DNA of 64,000 nucleotides from Propionicimonas paludicola (GTDB taxonomy: Bacteria > Actinomycetota > Actinomycetes > Propionibacteriales > Propionibacteriaceae). The notes under the pieces are model-generated. The model had not been told where the DNA came from. It saw nothing but the letters and a program-made list of their open reading frames with translations, and did not search any database. Of the stretch, positions 21,675 to 28,886 are shown piece by piece. How positions within the stretch are numbered: the stretch's first letter is position 1; each line of letters begins with the position of its first letter. The stretch spans positions 2,294,001-2,358,000 of the forward strand of contig NZ_PDJC01000001.1 in NCBI RefSeq assembly GCF_002563675.1, written 5' to 3'. The position numbers and the translations under genes were made by a program.

Positions 21675-21792
21675 CAGGGCGAGTTCCACACCGTCCACCC
21701 TTGCCAGAAGACACTTGGACGACAGATGCCGCTGGTCGCTCTCGCCAACACGCGCGGACGAGATTGCTCACCGTCGCACGACCTGCTACACA

Positions 21793-21808
21793 TTGCACGA
21801 ACGTGCAA
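21793..21808. promoter_or_regulatory. Perfect palindrome, putative operator of the SorC-family gene
   Basis: TTGCACGAACGTGCAA has 7-bp arms around AA. It ends immediately before the ribosome site (GGGAGG) of the regulator gene, a position suited to autorepression. The half-site TTGCACGA recurs in the RuBisCO/FBPase-like intergenic region at 24378. Confidence 0.65.
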
Positions 21809-21820
21809 GGGAGGACGGTC

Positions 21821-22777
21821 ATGAGCGAGCGCTACGAGGAGATGTACCAGGCGGCATCCCGGTACTACGTCCACGCCGAGACGATGGAGACCATCGCGCA
21901 TCATCTGAAGATCTCGCGCTCTACGGTCTCGCGACTCCTCAAGGAGGCCCGCGATACCGGACTGGTCCGGATCTCCCTGGCCGATCACCAGGGCTCGGCT
22001 TCGCCGCTGTCCACGGCCCTGGCGCAGCGCTTCGGCGTCCGCGTCCATATGGTGTCGGTGCGCGAGAACGCCAACGAAAAGGTGCGGATGGAGCGGGTGG
22101 CCCGGATGGCCGGCCAGCTGCTCACCGAGGTGGTCGAGGATCACGACGTGATCGGGGTCGCCTGGGGCGTCACCTTGTCCAACGTCGTCCGCTATCTCGG
22201 ACGCCGCCCGCTGGTCGAGGCCACGGTGGTCCAGGTGAACGGAAGCGCGAACCAGCATGACTCGGGCCTGCCCTACATCGGCGAGATCATGCAGTCCTTC
22301 GGTGACGCCTTCGACGCACGCGCCGTGCTGTTCCCGGTGCCGGCCTTCTTCGACCAGCCCGAGGCCAAGTCGGTGCTGTGGCGGGAACGGTCGATCCAGC
22401 AGGTGCTGCGGCTGCGCGACCAGGTGGACATCGCCGTCTTCGGCGTCGGCGCGCTGAAGGCGCGAGTGCCGTCCCACGTCTACTCGGCCGGGTACATGGA
22501 CCCCGCCGAGATGGAGCAGCTGCTCAGCGAGGGCGTGGTCGGCGATGTGTGTACGGTGCTGCTGCGCGAGGACGGCTCGTACGCCGACATCGCCTACAAC
22601 GAGCGGGCCACCGGTCCGACACCGGCCGAGCTGGCCAAGATTGCGCGCCGGATCTGCGTGGTCGCCGACCCGTCCCGGGCCCCGGCGCTGATCGGCGCAC
22701 TCCGGGCCGGAACCGCCACCGACCTGGTCCTGGACGACGGCACCGCGCGAGCCGTGCTGAACCGGCTGTCCCGCTAG
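21821..22777 (+). CDS. SorC/DeoR-type sugar-binding transcriptional regulator
   Basis: 318 residues. The N-terminal helix-turn-helix (about 10-50; ETMETIAHHLKISRSTVSRLL) is followed by a SorC-type effector domain (about 60-315) with VIGVAWGVTLSNVVRYL and VCTVLLREDGSYAD. Family members such as CggR and DeoR sense phosphorylated sugars. The gene faces RuBisCO tail to tail and is the only regulator in the Calvin island, where a LysR-type CbbR would be usual. I infer that it senses a Calvin-cycle sugar phosphate. A GGGAGG site six bases upstream fixes the start at ATG 21821. Confidence 0.85.
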   Translation: MSERYEEMYQAASRYYVHAETMETIAHHLKISRSTVSRLLKEARDTGLVRISLADHQGSASPLSTALAQRFGVRVHMVSVRENANEKVRMERVARMAGQLLTEVVEDHDVIGVAWGVTLSNVVRYLGRRPLVEATVVQVNGSANQHDSGLPYIGEIMQSFGDAFDARAVLFPVPAFFDQPEAKSVLWRERSIQQVLRLRDQVDIAVFGVGALKARVPSHVYSAGYMDPAEMEQLLSEGVVGDVCTVLLREDGSYADIAYNERATGPTPAELAKIARRICVVADPSRAPALIGALRAGTATDLVLDDGTARAVLNRLSR

Positions 22778-22840: not shown

Positions 22841-24211
22841 TCAGAGCAGGCGGGAGCGCCAGCCCGGGTAGAGCGCGTCGGCGTCGGCCGGGAAGGACTC
22901 GAAGGCACGGGCGAACTCGCGGTGCTCGAGCGCCCACTCGATCGGATCGGCACCCGCGGCCCAGCAGTCGTGGGCCTGGCGCAGAGACCGGGCGCCGGCC
23001 GCAGGCCCGTCCAGGTGGCCGTAGCAGCCGCCTCCGGCAGTGTTGATCAGGTTGGCGTGCCCCAGGTTGGCGAAGAAGCCGGGCAGCCGCAGGGCGTTCA
23101 TCCCGCCCGAGACGATCGGGGTGGTCGGACGCATGCCGTGCCACTCCTGATGGAAGGCCGGGCCGGAGTAGCTGTCCCGCTCGATCACGTAGGCGATCGC
23201 GCGGTCGTCCCGGCCGCCCTCCATCTTTCCGTAGCCCATGGTGCCGACGTGGATCCCGGACGCCCCCTGCAAGCGGGCCATCTTGGCCAGCACATAGGCG
23301 GTGTAGCCGCGCGCAGAGCTCGGCGAGGTGATCATCCCGTGGCCGGCCCGGTGGTAGTGCAGGAACTGGTTCGGGAAGTGCCGCCGCGCCGTGGTGATCA
23401 TCCCCGGGCCACCAACGAAGCCGTCCACCAGGAACGCGACCTTGTCGGCGTCCGGCCCGAAGGCGGACAGGATGTACTCGCCGCGGGCGATCATCTCGTC
23501 ATGGTCGTCGGCGGTGATGTTGGCGCTGAACAGCTTGGCCTCTCCGGTGGCGTCCATGGCCCGCTTCATGGCGTCGTAGACCAGCGGGATGGTCTGCTTC
23601 AGCGGCGCGAACGGCTGGTTGCCCTGCGGCTCGTCGTTCTTGATGAAGTCCCCGCCCAGCCAGAAGTCGTGAGCGGCCTGTGCGAACGGCTCCGGACGCA
23701 GCCCGAGCTTCGGCTTGATGATGGTGCCGGCGATGTAGCCGCCGTCGACCACCGGACGCCCGAGCGTCCGCCACAGGTCGACGATGCCCTTGGCCGGCCC
23801 GTCGAACAGCTCAATGGCCCGCCGCGGCAGCCAGAAGTCGTACATCTTGGCGGCCTCGATGTCGCCCATCCCCTGGTTGTTGCCGATGGTCAGGGTCAGG
23901 AACGAGACGATCATCATCCGACCGTCGATGATGTTGCGGTCGAACAGCTCCAGCGGATAGGCGATCCGCAACTCCCCGGTGGCCTCGTCCGCGCGGTACA
24001 CCAGGGCGTCCACGCTGCGGGTGAAGTCATCGGTGGTGGAGACCGTCACATTTGTTCCGGTGGACGACTCCGCGGCGAAATGCGCGGCAGCCGCAACAAA
24101 TCCAATTCCCGGCTTGGGCGTCATCCGATAGGCGCACAGAATGTGCGCTCCGCCCGCCATCAACTCGTCCTCAGAGAGGTCGAGATTCACATAACGCTTC
24201 GACTGATCCAT
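22841..24211 (-). CDS. cbbM: Ribulose-1,5-bisphosphate carboxylase, form II
   Basis: 456 residues aligning from residue 1 with the Rhodospirillum rubrum form II enzyme as I recall it, so numbering is shared through the active site. Catalytic residues are intact: Glu48, Asn111, Lys166 (TIIKPKLG), carbamylated Lys191 with Asp193 and Glu194 ([14 protein letters not shown]), His287 (HYHRAGHG), loop-6 Lys329 ([10 protein letters not shown]) and Ser368 (SGGMNA). It should fix CO2 onto ribulose bisphosphate as a large-subunit dimer; no small subunit or Rca-type activase is nearby. It is transcribed away from the FBPase-like and phosphoribulokinase genes. A TAGGGC box lies eight bases before the ATG and no ribosome site is visible. 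Form II in an actinobacterium suggests transfer, most likely from a proteobacterium. Confidence 0.97.
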
Positions 24212-24493
24212 GGTGACTCGCCCTATTGCCGCAGCCCTCAGTGGACGCCGGGACGCACGCCAGCGACACAGAAGACCTAGTCAGAGGATGCTGATGAGGG
24301 GTCTCGCCAGTCTCCACCCTGCTGTTGGCGATGATGCTAATGCCCGCAACTGGCCTCGAATAGCGCCCGGACGCGGCTTGCACGATTTCGCACGCAATGC
24401 TCGATCAGCTGATGTTCTTGCTCAACGGGGCGGACCGATAGCTGATTGTGATCTTTGATCAATAGGCTGCGCGAACCAGATGAAGGAGCCGAG
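24212..24493. promoter_or_regulatory. Divergent control region of the Calvin-cycle island
   Basis: 282 bases between the RuBisCO start (minus) and the FBPase-like start (plus), and locally richer in AT than the genes. It contains TTGCACGATTTCGCACGCAA at 24378-24397: a TTGCACGA half-site identical to the regulator palindrome, facing a degenerate inverted copy (TTGCGTGC on the other strand). Near 24446-24463 there is also an imperfect TGATC inverted repeat. This is the likely site where the SorC-type protein controls both transcripts. Confidence 0.6.
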
Positions 24494-25513
24494 GTGATCA
24501 CCCTTACCCAGTACCTGCTCGGCATGCGCGAGACGGCACATGCCACGCTGATCAGCGGGCTGGCCGTCGCGGTGAAGCTGACCGCGGCCGCTGCCAGCAG
24601 AGGGCCGCTGATCCTCGATCAGACTCGGCAGCCCAGCCCGCGGGAGGTGAACCGCAGCCTGCGCCGGCTGGCCGGCCAGGTGCTGCTGGCCCAGCTGCAG
24701 GAGGCCGACCAGCTCGCCGGGATCTCCTTCGCCGGCCAGCCACAGATCCTGCCCGGCAACCCCGAAGGCCGCTACCTGCTGCTCTTCGATGCCATGCACG
24801 GAATGAGCAACCTGAACGACAACCTGCCGGTGGGCTCGGCCTTCTCGATCCTGGAGCGGCCCGAGCCGGGCCGTCCCTGCCTGATCGAGGACTTCCTGCA
24901 GCCGGGCACCCGTCAGGTCAGCGCCGGGATCGCCCTCTTCGGGCCGCGGACGATCTGCGCCCTGACCACCGGGGACGGTGTGGACGGCTTCACCCTCGAC
25001 CGCGACGTGGGCAACTTTGTGCTCACTCACCCGCACCTGCGGATCCCCGACGAGTCGGCCATGTTCGCCATCGACGCCTCCCAGGCCCCACACTGGCCGG
25101 CCGCGGTGCGCCGCTACGTCGAGGAGTGCACGCTGGGCAGCGACGGCCCGCGCAGGCAGGACTTCCACATGCGCTGGAACGCCTCGGCCGTGGTCGGCGC
25201 CTACCGGGTGCTGAACTCCGGCGGCCTGTTCCTGGCCCCGGACACCGGACGCAGCGGGCATTGGTTGGCGCCGCTACTGCACACTGCGGCCCCGCTGGCC
25301 TTCCTGGCCGAGCAGGCCGGTGGCAGCGCCAGCACCGGAACCGGTCGGGTGCTCGAGGTGTCGCCGAGCGGCCTGGACGCCCGGGTGCCGCTGTTCCTGG
25401 GCAGCAGCGACGAGGTGGCCCGACTCGAGGGCTACTTCGCCGACCATGCGCTGGGCCACGACCGGGAGTACTCCCATCCCCTGTTCCATCACCGCACTCT
25501 CTTCGCCGACTAG
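24494..25513 (+). CDS. FBPase-fold protein lacking most catalytic residues
   Basis: 339 residues of class I fructose-1,6-bisphosphatase fold, recognisable by EDFLQPGTRQVSAGIALFG, TTGDGVDGFT and PLAFLAEQAGGSASTG. The catalytic centre is altered: canonical D-P-L-D-G-S-S is DAMHGMS (Asp99 kept, second Asp is His102), S-E-E is SFA (78-80), K-L-D is S-L-R, L-Y-E is LHT (262-264), and the K-L-R substrate residues are gone. Of the usual metal ligands only Asp99 remains. Frame and fold motifs on both sides are intact, so this is not a frameshift. It may be a regulator, a scaffold or an altered enzyme. The GTG at 24494 follows AAGGAG by five bases. Phosphoribulokinase starts eight bases after its stop. 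Confidence 0.88.
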   Translation: MITLTQYLLGMRETAHATLISGLAVAVKLTAAAASRGPLILDQTRQPSPREVNRSLRRLAGQVLLAQLQEADQLAGISFAGQPQILPGNPEGRYLLLFDAMHGMSNLNDNLPVGSAFSILERPEPGRPCLIEDFLQPGTRQVSAGIALFGPRTICALTTGDGVDGFTLDRDVGNFVLTHPHLRIPDESAMFAIDASQAPHWPAAVRRYVEECTLGSDGPRRQDFHMRWNASAVVGAYRVLNSGGLFLAPDTGRSGHWLAPLLHTAAPLAFLAEQAGGSASTGTGRVLEVSPSGLDARVPLFLGSSDEVARLEGYFADHALGHDREYSHPLFHHRTLFAD

Positions 25514-25521
25514 GAGCATCG

Positions 25522-26406
25522 ATGTCCCGCAGGCATCCCGTGGTGGCGGTCACCGGCTCGTCCGGGGCCGGCACCTCCACGATCACCGACACCTTCGCCC
25601 AGATCTTCGCCCGGGAGTCGGTGTCGGCGGCGATCGTGCACGGCGACTCTTTCCATCGCTACGACCGCGAGGGAATGAAGCGCGCCCACGAGGCAGCCGC
25701 CGGACACAGCGAACTGAGCCACTTCGGGCCGGACGCGAACCTCTTCGAGGAACTCGAAGCCCTCTTCGAGGAGTACGGACGCTCCGGCTCTGGTCGGGTG
25801 CGCAACTACGTCCACGACGACGAGGAGGCTGCCGCGCTGGGCTGCCAGCCGGGCACCTTCACGCCCTGGCAGGATCTGGCACCGGGCAGTGACCTGCTCT
25901 ACTACGAGGGGCTGCACGGCGCCGTCCAGACCGAGACCGTGGACGTCGCCAGCAAGGTCGATCTGCTGATCGGGGTGGTGCCGACCATCAACCTGGAGTG
26001 GATCCAGAAGCTGCACCGCGACCGCACAAAGCGCGGCTACTCGACCGAGGCGGTCACCGACACCATCCTGCGCCGGATGCCGGACTACGTCCGCTACATC
26101 TGCCCGCAGTTCTCCAACACCCACATCAACTTCCAGCGGGTGCCGATCGTGGACACCTCGAACCCGTTCATCGCCCGCTGGATCCCCACCCCGGACGAGT
26201 CGATGGTAGTGATCCGGTTCGCCGATCCCCGCGGCTTCGACTTCCCCTACCTGCTCAGCATGATCAATGGCTCGTTCATGTCGCGGGCCAACAGCATCGT
26301 GGTGCCCGGCGGCAAGCTGGATCTGGCCATGCAACTGATCCTCACTCCGCTGATCTGGCGGCTGGTCGACACCGCCCGCAAGGAGCATTCGCTGGCCCGG
26401 GCTTGA
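25522..26406 (+). CDS. prkB: Phosphoribulokinase, proteobacterial (class I) type
   Basis: 294 residues. It phosphorylates ribulose-5-phosphate to make the RuBisCO substrate. The P-loop TGSSGAGTST (11-20), Asp42 in HGDSFHRYDRE, base Glu129 in YYEGLH, and the Lys/Arg cluster QKLHRDRTKRGY are all present. The body (VDTSNPFIARWIPT, MSRANSIVVPG) closely matches Rhodobacter PRK as I recall it. It should be active, unlike the protein encoded just upstream. A TAGGAG site overlaps the upstream stop. It ends 13 bases from the convergent chromate transporter gene. The symbol is by family; cbbP is equivalent. Confidence 0.96.
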   Translation: MSRRHPVVAVTGSSGAGTSTITDTFAQIFARESVSAAIVHGDSFHRYDREGMKRAHEAAAGHSELSHFGPDANLFEELEALFEEYGRSGSGRVRNYVHDDEEAAALGCQPGTFTPWQDLAPGSDLLYYEGLHGAVQTETVDVASKVDLLIGVVPTINLEWIQKLHRDRTKRGYSTEAVTDTILRRMPDYVRYICPQFSNTHINFQRVPIVDTSNPFIARWIPTPDESMVVIRFADPRGFDFPYLLSMINGSFMSRANSIVVPGGKLDLAMQLILTPLIWRLVDTARKEHSLARA

Positions 26407-26419
26407 ACCGGGGCCGACC

Positions 26420-27622
26420 CTAGAGCAGGACGGCGCCGGCCAGCCCGGCCAGCAGCACCACCAGCCAGGCCGGGGTGCGCCAGCTGGTCAGGGCTACGAA
26501 GCAGACAGCTGCGATGGCGAAGCTGACTCCCCCAGTGATCCCGCTGGTGAACACCGGCTGGTAGAGGGCAGCGGCCAAGATCCCAACCACGGCCGCGTTG
26601 ACCCCCATGAGAGCTGCCTGCGCGCGCGGTGCCCGGCGCAACCGGCTCCAGAACGGCAGCGCCCCGGCGATCAGCAGAGCCGACGGAAGGAAGATGGCCA
26701 CCAGCGCGATGGCCGCACCGAGCAGGCCGTTGGGCGCGGTGTTGAGCACGTAGCCCAGGAAGGCCGCGAAGGTGAACAGCGGACCGGGGACGGCCTGGGC
26801 CGCCCCATAGCCGGCCAGGAAGGTGTCGTGGCTGACCAGCCCGGGCTGGACGGTGACCGCGTCGAGCAGCGGCAGCACGACGTGGCCGCCGCCGAAGACC
26901 AGGGATCCCGACCGGTAGAAGTCGTCGAAGAGCCGCAGCACCGGGTTCCCGGTGGCCGCAGCCAGGACCGGCAACCCCACCAACAAACCGGCGAACAGCG
27001 CGAGGCTGACCACCGCGGCCGATCGGCCCAGCGGGACGTCCAGCTCGGACTCCGGAGCCGGCGCGGACGGGGTGAGCCAGACCAACCCGATCAGCCCTGC
27101 CGCCGCGATCACCACCAGCTGAGTCCAGGCCGGCGGGCTGAGCAGGACGGCGACCAGGGCCGCCACCGCGATGGCGGCCCGCTTGGCGTCCGGGGTGAGC
27201 GTCCGGGCCATGGCCAGGACGGCATTCCCGACAACTCCCACCGCGGCCGCCTTCAGGCCCAGCACCCAGCCGGCAGTGGCGGCACCACCCCACAAGTCGA
27301 GTCCGTAGCCGAAGCCGACCATCAGCAGCGCCGAGGGCAGTGTGAAGCCGAGCCAGGCGGCGACCAGACCGGGCAACCCGGCCCGCTGCAGGCCGATCCC
27401 CATCCCGACCTGGCTGGAGGCCGGTCCGGGCAGGAACTGACACAGCGCAACCAGGTCGGCGTAGGCGGTCTCGCTGAGCCAGCGGCGGCGCTCGACCAGC
27501 GCCCTACGGAAGTAACCCAGATGCGCGATCGGGCCGCCGAAGGAGGTCAGGCCCAACCCGAGGAAGACCGTGAAGACTTCGACAGCCCGTCCGAGGCGGC
27601 TTGGGCTGGTCGGCTCAGTCAC
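26420..27622 (-). CDS. chrA: Chromate transporter, ChrA (CHR) family
   Basis: 400 residues, about ten to twelve membrane segments in two homologous halves, the long-chain ChrA form. Half 1 carries SFGGPIAHLGYFRR and QFLPGPASSQ. Half 2 carries FGGGHVVLPLLD and QAVPGPLFTFAAFLG. ChrA exports chromate and usually confers resistance. GTG start, 12 bases after arsR, so probably cotranscribed from the arsR promoter. This links chromate export to an ArsR-type repressor and an arsenite methyltransferase. Confidence 0.93.
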   Translation of the reverse strand: MTEPTSPSRLGRAVEVFTVFLGLGLTSFGGPIAHLGYFRRALVERRRWLSETAYADLVALCQFLPGPASSQVGMGIGLQRAGLPGLVAAWLGFTLPSALLMVGFGYGLDLWGGAATAGWVLGLKAAAVGVVGNAVLAMARTLTPDAKRAAIAVAALVAVLLSPPAWTQLVVIAAAGLIGLVWLTPSAPAPESELDVPLGRSAAVVSLALFAGLLVGLPVLAAATGNPVLRLFDDFYRSGSLVFGGGHVVLPLLDAVTVQPGLVSHDTFLAGYGAAQAVPGPLFTFAAFLGYVLNTAPNGLLGAAIALVAIFLPSALLIAGALPFWSRLRRAPRAQAALMGVNAAVVGILAAALYQPVFTSGITGGVSFAIAAVCFVALTSWRTPAWLVVLLAGLAGAVLL

Positions 27623-27634
27623 GGCCGGTTCCGC

Positions 27635-27976
27635 TCAGGCCGGAACAGCGGCCGGCTGGAGCAGGGAGCCGAGTGCGCGCAGCGCGTCCGGAAGCACTCG
27701 GTAGTAGACCCAGGTGCCGCGACGCTCGCAGTCGACCAGGCCGGCTTCGCGCAGCACCTTCAGGTGGTGACTGATCGTGGGCCCGGAGAGCTCGAAGGAC
27801 GGGGTCAGGTCGCAGACACAGATCTCATCGTGGCCGGCGATCATCGAGGCCAGCCGTAGCCGAACCGGATCACCGAGCGCCTTGAACATCGGTGCGATCC
27901 GGGCGGCCTCCGCCTCGGTGACCGGGGCCACAGCCAGGCCGCAGCAGTCCGCGGCGAGTTCGAGGTCGAGAGCCAT
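27635..27976 (-). CDS. ArsR/SmtB-family metal(loid)-responsive repressor
   Basis: 113 residues from ATG 27976 (an in-frame start at 27994 is possible). A winged helix covers about 35-100, with recognition helix SGPTISHHLKVLREAGLV. Two cysteine sets are candidate sensor sites: Asp-Cys-Cys near residues 11-12 and CVCDL near 54-56, the second as in classical ArsR. It lies divergently from the methyltransferase gene and upstream of chrA, so it probably represses both until metalloid binds. Inverted repeats in the intergenic region are candidate operators. Confidence 0.88.
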   Translation of the reverse strand: MALDLELAADCCGLAVAPVTEAEAARIAPMFKALGDPVRLRLASMIAGHDEICVCDLTPSFELSGPTISHHLKVLREAGLVDCERRGTWVYYRVLPDALRALGSLLQPAAVPA

Positions 27977-27985
27977 GGCGTCATC

Positions 27986-28022
27986 TTGACACACGTCAAA
28001 ACAGGCTGGAAAGATCCTGTTT
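27986..28022. promoter_or_regulatory. Two inverted repeats, putative ArsR operators
   Basis: TTGAC-ACAC-GTCAA covers 27986-27999. AAACAGG at 27999-28005 pairs with CCTGTTT at 28016-28022. Both lie in the 73-base gap between arsR and the methyltransferase gene, where one repressor could control both directions. Confidence 0.6.
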
Positions 28023-28049
28023 CGATGATCATCTATTCAAGGAGGAGAA

Positions 28050-28886
28050 GTGAGCGAACAACTCGAGCTGCGTGAGGCCGTCCGTGAGCGCTACGCCGGC
28101 GCCGCTCGACAGGCCCTGCAGCTCGCCGATGGGGGCTGCTGCGGGAGTTCCAGCTATGGAGCCGGCGGCACCGACCCGATCACGGCAGGCCTGTACGAGC
28201 AGACCGCCAGCCCCTCCGAAGGCGCGCTGGCCGCCTCGCTCGGCTGCGGCAACCCGACCGCGCTGATCGAACTCGAGCCTGGCCAGCAGGTCCTCGACCT
28301 CGGTTCCGGTGGCGGCTTGGACGTCCTGCTTTCGGCCCGCCGGGTCGCTCCGGACGGGCACGCCTACGGCCTGGACATGACCGACGAGATGCTGGCCCTT
28401 GCCGAGCGGAACAAGGCCGAGTCCGGCATCACCAATGCCACCTTCATCAAGGGCACCATCGAGGACATCCCGCTGCCCGAGGCCAGCGTGGACGTGGTGA
28501 TCTCCAACTGTGTGATCAACCTGTCCACCGACAAGGACGCCGTCCTGCGCGAGGCATTCCGGGTCCTTCGTCCGGGCGGACGATTCGCCGTCTCCGACAT
28601 CGTCCTGCTGCGCCCGCTCGGGCCGGAGTGGGTATCGCTGATCGGGTTGTGGACCGGCTGCATCGCCGGCGCCCTGCTCGATGCCGACTACCTAGCCAAG
28701 CTCCGCGCCTCCGGCTTCACCAACCCCCGGATCCAGGTCACCCGGACCTACGAGCGCGACGAACTGCTCGAGATGGCCGGCACCCTGCCCGACAACAGCC
28801 TGCCGGACGGGATCAGCCCGGCCGAGGCCATCGCACAGCTCGAAGGCGCCTTCGCCAGCGCCTTCATCCGCGCCGAGAAGGCCTAG
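28050..28886 (+). CDS. arsM: Arsenite S-adenosylmethionine methyltransferase
   Basis: 278 residues. A class I SAM fold is shown by VLDLGSGGGLDVLLSA (motif I, about 81-96). The arsenic-binding cysteines conserved in ArsM are visible: Cys66 in LGCGNP, Cys154 in ISNCVINLS and Cys204 in WTGCIAGAL. A further Cys30-Cys31 pair lies in GGCCGSSSYG. It should methylate As(III) to volatile or less toxic forms. GTG start after a strong GGAGGAG site; divergent from arsR. Confidence 0.94.
   Translation: MSEQLELREAVRERYAGAARQALQLADGGCCGSSSYGAGGTDPITAGLYEQTASPSEGALAASLGCGNPTALIELEPGQQVLDLGSGGGLDVLLSARRVAPDGHAYGLDMTDEMLALAERNKAESGITNATFIKGTIEDIPLPEASVDVVISNCVINLSTDKDAVLREAFRVLRPGGRFAVSDIVLLRPLGPEWVSLIGLWTGCIAGALLDADYLAKLRASGFTNPRIQVTRTYERDELLEMAGTLPDNSLPDGISPAEAIAQLEGAFASAFIRAEKA

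Follow-up and report, generated by a model that had tools for sequence, protein, structure and literature searches.

Between the genes for a form II RuBisCO and a phosphoribulokinase (PRK), the window (the whole 64,000-nucleotide stretch of Propionicimonas paludicola DNA analysed here) encodes a protein that resembles class I FBPase. Control of the Calvin cycle is classically exerted at FBPase and PRK, among other steps. The first-pass annotation of the sequence had described this protein as a pseudo-FBPase that was probably repurposed. The locus raises the question of whether the protein can still be an FBPase and, if it cannot, what keeps the gene in a carbon-fixation operon.

The window protein has the FBPase fold and an altered catalytic site

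We found that the frame of the FBPase-like gene is open without a stop over its full length and is preceded by a likely ribosome-binding site (Table 1). The protein scores above the cut-offs of both Pfam FBPase domains (N-terminal, 86.2 bits against 34.8; C-terminal, 101.9 bits against 27) and its closest solved structure is a class 1 FBPase (2.7e-55). Membership in the class I FBPase fold family and the intact frame, both claimed in the first-pass annotation, are therefore confirmed. The best of the eight NCBIfam FBPase models that matched gave 255.7 bits against an enzyme cut-off of 349, and the protein fell below the cut-off of all eight; since it scores below the cut-off, these models would not name it. 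A promoter and terminator scan found no site, and a repeat search of the intergenic region found two short direct repeats and no inverted repeat.

Table 1. Features of the FBPase-like locus, in positions of the window
Feature	Position	Strand	Remarks
SorC/DeoR-type regulator with sugar-binding domain	21701..22777	+	above the cut-off of PF04198 but not that of NCBIfam DeoR
Form II RuBisCO large subunit	22841..24211	-	divergent; 853.6 bits (cut-off 489)
Likely ribosome-binding site AAGGAG	24483..24488	+	5 nt upstream of the pseudo-FBPase GTG
Pseudo-FBPase (degenerate CbbF)	24494..25513	+	339 aa, GTG start
Codon 57, Arg replacing E. coli Asp66 (pig Asp74)	24662..24664	+	Arg in 12 of 12 members
Codons 80-81, Ala-Gly replacing metal/catalytic Glu-Glu (E. 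coli 89-90, pig 97-98)	24731..24736	+	
Codons 99-103, D-A-M-H-G replacing D-P-L-D-G	24788..24802	+	
Codons 257-264, W-L-A-P-L-L-H-T replacing G-[KR]-L-R-L-L-Y-E	25262..25285	+	
Phosphoribulokinase, intact frame	25522..26406	+	starts 8 nt past the pseudo-FBPase stop (TAGGAGCATCGATG)

The catalytic site was read residue by residue from an alignment to E. coli Fbp together with 27 more canonical FBPases of class I, using what we take to be the correspondence between pig and E. coli FBPase numbering. The metal sites of the porcine enzyme were reportedly studied by mutagenesis by Chen et al. in 1993. Lys274 and Tyr264 of FBPase are substrate groups. According to excerpts of two reports on mammalian FBPase, metal 1 is bound by Asp118, Asp121 and Glu280, metal 2 by Glu97 and Asp118, and metal 3 by Glu97, while Asp74 and Glu98 handle the catalytic waters and Arg276 contacts the metaphosphate (PMC3785478, PMC5639204).

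Aligned with E. coli Fbp, the window protein has R57 for D66, A80 for E89, G81 for E90, D99 for D110, H102 for D113, A248 for Y259, L258 for K269, P260 for R271 and T264 for E275. Of the four metal ligands, Glu97, Asp118, Asp121 and Glu280, the protein therefore keeps one (A80, D99, H102 and T264), and Asp74, Glu98, Arg276, Tyr264 and Lys274 read R57, G81, P260, A248 and L258; neither set is that of the enzyme. The equivalent of pig Tyr279 is His, and R227 (pig Arg243) and the Gly122 equivalent are retained. By this alignment all catalytic carboxylates but one are altered, and the window protein can hardly be an FBPase.

Most of what had been read from the sequence at first pass held up, including DAMHG in place of DPLDG, LHT in place of LYE and the loss of the substrate residues of the K-L-R stretch (K269 and R271). 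The reading of the SEE motif as SFA was right about the loss and one residue off in register, since S88-E89-E90 of E. coli aligns with F79-A80-G81. The metal site is indeed dismantled, and to the changes listed then has to be added the replacement of the pig Asp74 equivalent by Arg, which had been missed.

The same altered site is fixed in relatives from three genera

We found matches to the window protein in 32 of the 198 genomes of its family. In twelve genomes, the window's own included, the copy is full-length and has its site dismantled, and a thirteenth (G016) has a C-terminal piece of the altered form at a contig end. Six of these 13 genomes belong to genus g1, four to g4 and three to g7. 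A contig scan with the window protein alone returned one relative, the G001 record. Outside the family no match at the identity seen within the clade (58% and up) was found in samples of 391 genomes from the order and 394 from the class, where residues were read in G267, G360 and nine class-level loci. Matches were also present in 225 plasmid records, all below 60% identity. Among the papers listed by searches of the open-access literature, none described a comparable inactive FBPase.

In all 12 full-length members pig Asp74 is replaced by Arg, Glu98 by Gly, Asp121 by His and Arg276 by Pro (Asp66Arg, Glu90Gly, Asp113His and Arg271Pro in E. coli numbering), Glu97 is Ala or Ser, and Glu280 is Asn (eight members) or Thr (four). 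The Tyr264 equivalent is Ala, Val or Ile across the clade. The Asp118 equivalent is Glu in 10 of the 12 and Asp in two, so the earlier statement that only Asp99 remains is true of the window and its nearest relative and not of the other 10. Arg57 and His102 occur in every member and His263 in 11, G007 having Tyr at this position; the Gly122 and Arg243 equivalents are kept in all 12 and Asn212 in 10. The conserved catalytic motifs are absent from every full-length member, which is what a pseudoenzyme should show. Decay or a sequencing artefact was considered as a cause and rejected, because the same replacements are fixed in all 12 full-length members, which come from different assemblies.

We compared the fate of active-site and other columns among 72 columns that are near-invariant in canonical FBPases (27 or 28 of 28), counting a column as lost when it is kept in no more than two of the 12 members. 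Of the 14 active-site columns 10 were lost, compared with 11 of the remaining 58 (Fisher p = 3e-4), with an active-site set of our own choice and with the pig Asp118 column, mostly Glu here, scored as lost. Since the active-site columns are lost preferentially, the loss of the active site is not chance decay. We sought migrated metal ligands among the near-invariant residues of the clade, where the sole new acidic residue is E121 (11 of 12). The caveat in the first-pass annotation that equivalent ligands might lie elsewhere in the fold thus finds no support at the level of sequence. AMP sensing as in the mammalian enzyme was also considered. Of the mammalian AMP site the Thr27-Thr31 stretch is not kept, although the Lys112-Tyr113 positions are Arg-Tyr in 12 of 12 members; 11 of the 12 have Glu at the position of E. 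coli R132, which we take to correspond to Arg140, a residue in contact with AMP in the pig enzyme.

The altered protein is encoded directly before an intact PRK

The window gene does lie, as annotated, between two intact Calvin-cycle genes: PRK has an ATG start and scores 490.5 bits against a cut-off of 362, and the form II RuBisCO clears its own cut-off (Table 1). Form II RuBisCO and PRK flank the pseudo-FBPase in all 12 full-length loci, so that the 11 full-length relatives provide the homologues with DAMHG-like changes in the same neighbourhood that the first-pass annotation had thought worth looking for. RuBisCO is divergent from the pseudo-FBPase in five of the 12 and co-directional in seven, and the G016 RuBisCO sits on another contig end. 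The order of pseudo-FBPase and PRK is constant, with 8-29 nt between the stop codon and PRK in 13 of 13 loci. In the loci read, the canonical CbbF of the family also adjoins PRK, and its RuBisCO, where one is in reach, is form I or a more distant form II. Since adjacency to PRK is usual for canonical CbbF too, it does not by itself show that PRK is the partner of the altered protein.

The RuBisCO proteins of the 13 genomes are 82-100% identical to that of the window. For the remaining long form II matches in the family identity lies at 76-81%, with G151 an exception at 84%. According to excerpts of one report, Propionicimonas and Propionicicella are among the few Actinomycetota that have RuBisCO of form IA or II and not IE (PMC12999727).

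We also asked how far PRK itself has changed. As a comparison we used 17 PRKs from other loci, 16 beside a canonical CbbF and one from G151; 111 of the 121 columns invariant among them are also invariant in all 13 clade PRKs. Only two columns differ in at least 10 of the 13 clade members, and they lie beside GDSFH and YEGLHG, which we take to be PRK catalytic motifs. The Glu just before GDSFH is His or Arg in 13 of 13 clade members and in none of the 17 others, and the Phe before YEGLHG is Tyr in all 13. These changes are consistent with co-adaptation of PRK and the pseudo-FBPase. An involvement of PRK in signalling is described for Rhodobacter sphaeroides in an excerpt of one report (PMC4806589).

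Several other features of these loci were observed. The true start of the regulator at 21701..22777 probably lies inside the frame. Downstream of PRK, at 26420-28886 of the window, a methyltransferase gene (28050-28886) lies near genes for an ArsR-type regulator and a chromate transporter; as a guess, the methyltransferase might act in arsenite methylation. Genes that by appearance encode a putative transcarboxylase are also found in the window. In the draft genome G007 the dead form occurs together with a canonical CbbF (L056 and L039); a separate PRK accompanies each of them, and the two would make a natural test pair.

The pseudo-FBPase is under purifying selection

For the pseudo-FBPase we obtained dN/dS values of 0.161 (window and G001), 0.123 and 0.117 in three close pairs and 0.19-0.46 in four longer pairs, which indicates purifying selection. 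In the same close pairs PRK gave 0.061, 0.066 and 0.057, about half as much, and RuBisCO gave 0.077, 0.123 and 0.023, below or equal to the pseudo-FBPase. Constraint on the pseudo-FBPase is thus weaker than on its neighbours, as its higher dN/dS and the values of the longer pairs indicate. No internal stop was found in any of the 13 frames, one of which is a fragment.

The 12 full-length members form one clade (support 100/100). Its stem measures 1.23 changes per site in a tree of 35 proteins, counting the clade's side of the midpoint root, and 1.39 in a tree of 45. The stem of the PRKs from the 13 loci is 0.11 changes per site (support 88/83, and 92/90 in a second PRK tree). The sharpest pattern in these comparisons is that the FBPase-like protein appears to have changed radically once and then held, while its operon partners stayed normal. 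Together with the shared replacements and the conserved synteny, the purifying selection argues for the repurposing that was proposed at first pass.

A pyrophosphate-type phosphofructokinase may perform the FBPase step

In the window's own genome, a single contig of 3.26 Mb with 98.5% completeness, neither GlpX nor a second class I FBPase was matched. Likewise, no other class I FBPase and no GlpX was found in 11 of the 13 genomes with the altered form, in a search that covered these two classes. Of the other two, G007 encodes a canonical CbbF along with a partial GlpX frame, and G016 a canonical CbbF. This absence is provisional, because several of the 13 genomes are incomplete drafts, and it is not special to them, since at least 138 of the 198 family genomes show neither class I nor GlpX; GlpX was found in 28 of the 198.

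We found four PF00365 matches in three genes of the own genome. One of these genes (L060) carries GGDD and PKTIDND, which we take to be the motifs of a pyrophosphate-type phosphofructokinase (PPi-PFK). A protein like L060 is encoded in 12 of the 13 genomes at 64-100% identity, its PPi type being assigned by these presumed motifs. In G019, which has the altered form and a 9% contaminated assembly, the PPi-PFK query gave weak matches to PFK paralogues only. The combination of a PPi-type PFK with an absent or dead FBPase is that of the PPi-PFK variant of the Calvin cycle, insofar as the presumed motifs define the PFK type and the search covered class I and GlpX. As part of one report describes, FBPase and SBPase are presumably both replaced by PPi-PFK in Calvin-cycle symbionts (PMC4287430).

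An 874-aa frame (L057/L059, G000:C1:2566855-2568852) has two tandem PFK domains, the first with GGDG and the second with GGWD, and one of the two may be dead.

Eroded CbbF beside PRK occurs elsewhere

As far as can be read from these loci, erosion of CbbF beside PRK is recurrent. In G151 (L064, 8962-9987) a CbbF on a long branch adjoins PRK and has Glu97 replaced by Asp, Glu98 by Lys, Arg276 by Leu and Tyr279 by Pro. In G113 (L066, 2-403) a fragment at a contig end, also on a long branch, has Ala-Gly for Glu97-Glu98 and reads DPLDA.

A further case is genus g70 of another family, where the G741 protein has matches in 105 of 148 genomes. We read residues in 21 loci (from L085, L086 and L091-L110), made up of the 20 with the best scores and G515. 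All 21 read RVSLLYG (Arg276 to Ser, Glu280 to Gly), and by a simple pattern match 18 of the 21 have SEQ for SEE. Like the window protein, the g70 CbbF is encoded before PRK and has lost catalytic groups (Arg276Ser, Glu280Gly and mostly Glu98Gln); it differs in keeping DPLDG and Glu97. The gene order in G741 and G515 is RuBisCO-FBPase-PRK, and in G741 the RuBisCO is form I and is adjoined by an AAA protein, presumably CbbX. The dN/dS of g70 CbbF is 0.06-0.14 in four pairs. GlpX is present in G741 and G515, the two g70 genomes checked. Five of the 105 genomes have a second copy at 52-55% identity, outside the 21 loci read, so active copies may exist in this genus. A shared origin of the g70 CbbF and the window's clade was also considered: the FBPase tree places g70 beside the window's clade (89/84) but the PRK tree does not, and the grouping is possibly due to long branches. 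Unlike the window protein, the G741 CbbF still scores as an FBPase (458.5 bits against the NCBIfam cut-off of 349). Since this milder g70 form passes as an FBPase by the family model, gene lists can mislead when autotrophy is predicted from them.

These cases raise the tentative possibility that CbbF has a non-catalytic, regulatory role directed at PRK that predates these bacteria, and that catalysis is shed, with only this role retained, where another enzyme takes over FBP hydrolysis (PPi-PFK in the window's clade, GlpX in g70). Dead or dying CbbF lineages beside PRK would then arise repeatedly, with the window's clade the most advanced. From such an old role one would expect repeated loss of CbbF catalysis. 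Loss would also follow from redundancy by itself, which would not, however, account for long-term conservation of the dead form.

What the pseudo-FBPase may do

The explanation that we favour, at somewhat better than even odds, is that the window protein is a dead class I FBPase whose ancestor was the CbbF encoded in a cbbF-cbbP (FBPase-PRK) operon, and that it was remodelled into a non-catalytic subunit with PRK as its most likely partner. In these Propionibacteriaceae-like bacteria a reversible PPi-PFK could dephosphorylate FBP, and perhaps SBP, and would so do the job of FBPase; CbbF would therefore no longer have had to catalyse. Having shed catalysis, with FBPase activity presumably nil, it would have been retained as a regulatory or structural partner of the PRK translated directly after it. 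The remodelled pocket (R57, D/E99, H102, R227 and N229) would perhaps bind and sense an anionic metabolite. This explanation draws on the lost carboxylates and their fixed replacements, the constant synteny, the purifying selection, the intact PRK and the PPi-type PFK in 12 of 13 genomes. As part of one paper describes, pseudoenzymes regulate allosterically, serve as scaffolds or act as competitors (PMC10211241). A hetero-oligomer with an active FBPase was also considered and is disfavoured for 11 of the 13 genomes, in which searches for class I and GlpX found no such partner.

It is unlikely, in our estimate, that the remodelled pocket (here R57, D/E99, H102, H263, N/T264, N229 and W257) instead catalyses a different sugar-phosphate reaction, perhaps metal-independent or with a single metal. 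The replacements are fixed, not random, and reactive residues (His102, His263 and Arg57) are among them; pseudoenzymes can also catalyse with migrated residues, as the same paper states in part (PMC10211241). However, E121 alone does not make a new set of conserved carboxylates, the Arg276 to Pro change and the loss of Tyr264 remove phosphate-site groups, and the G007 member has Tyr in place of His263. We would also give a low probability to a protein that stands alone or acts on the form II RuBisCO as a sugar-phosphate sensor, assembly partner or chaperone, and is not a PRK partner. That the clade tracks a single form II group speaks for this, but the orientation of RuBisCO varies where the order and close spacing of pseudo-FBPase and PRK are constant, and G151 has the 84% identical RuBisCO without the clade's form of CbbF.

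Residual activity is less probable still. A weak FBPase or SBPase with a rearranged metal site would fit the kept fold, the Gly122, Arg243 and Asn212 equivalents and the lack of another class I or GlpX enzyme in 11 of 13 genomes; yet the ligands Glu97, Asp121 and Glu280 and the water-handling Asp74 and Glu98 are lost in all 12, and PPi-PFK offers an alternative route. Least probable of all, to the point of being remote, is a slow pseudogene or relaxed-selection relic that has no function. The dN/dS above that of PRK and mostly above that of RuBisCO, the long stem and an apparently vanished need for catalysis would agree with a relic, whereas the absence of internal stops, the dN/dS of 0.12-0.16 in the close pairs, the invariance of the new residues across three genera and the close spacing to PRK would not.

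Set beside known systems, the window protein shares with class I FBPase/CbbF (PF00316 and PF18913; NF006779) the fold family, length, domain order, position before PRK, a PLFxxRxLF-like C-terminal tail and, away from the active site, most of the near-invariant core; it differs by the altered carboxylates and by the loss of the Arg276 and Tyr264 equivalents. The trypanosomatid prozyme and deoxyhypusine synthase paralogue are said to be catalytically dead paralogues that activate enzymes, and like them the window protein would be a dead descendant of a pathway enzyme retained in the same pathway. In contrast to those cases, 11 of the 13 genomes showed no active parent enzyme, and the partner would therefore be a different enzyme (PRK or RuBisCO) and not its own paralogue. 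The likeness to the symbiont Calvin cycle is that the FBPase and SBPase steps may be taken over by PPi-PFK; the difference is that FBPase genes are reported absent there, in the available part of that report, whereas in the window's clade the gene was kept and rebuilt (PMC4287430).

If the favoured explanation is true, a non-enzyme FBPase in a carbon-fixation operon would provide a clean handle on the non-catalytic role of CbbF. It would also represent a second outcome of the PPi-PFK Calvin cycle, in which the FBPase gene is rebuilt rather than lost.
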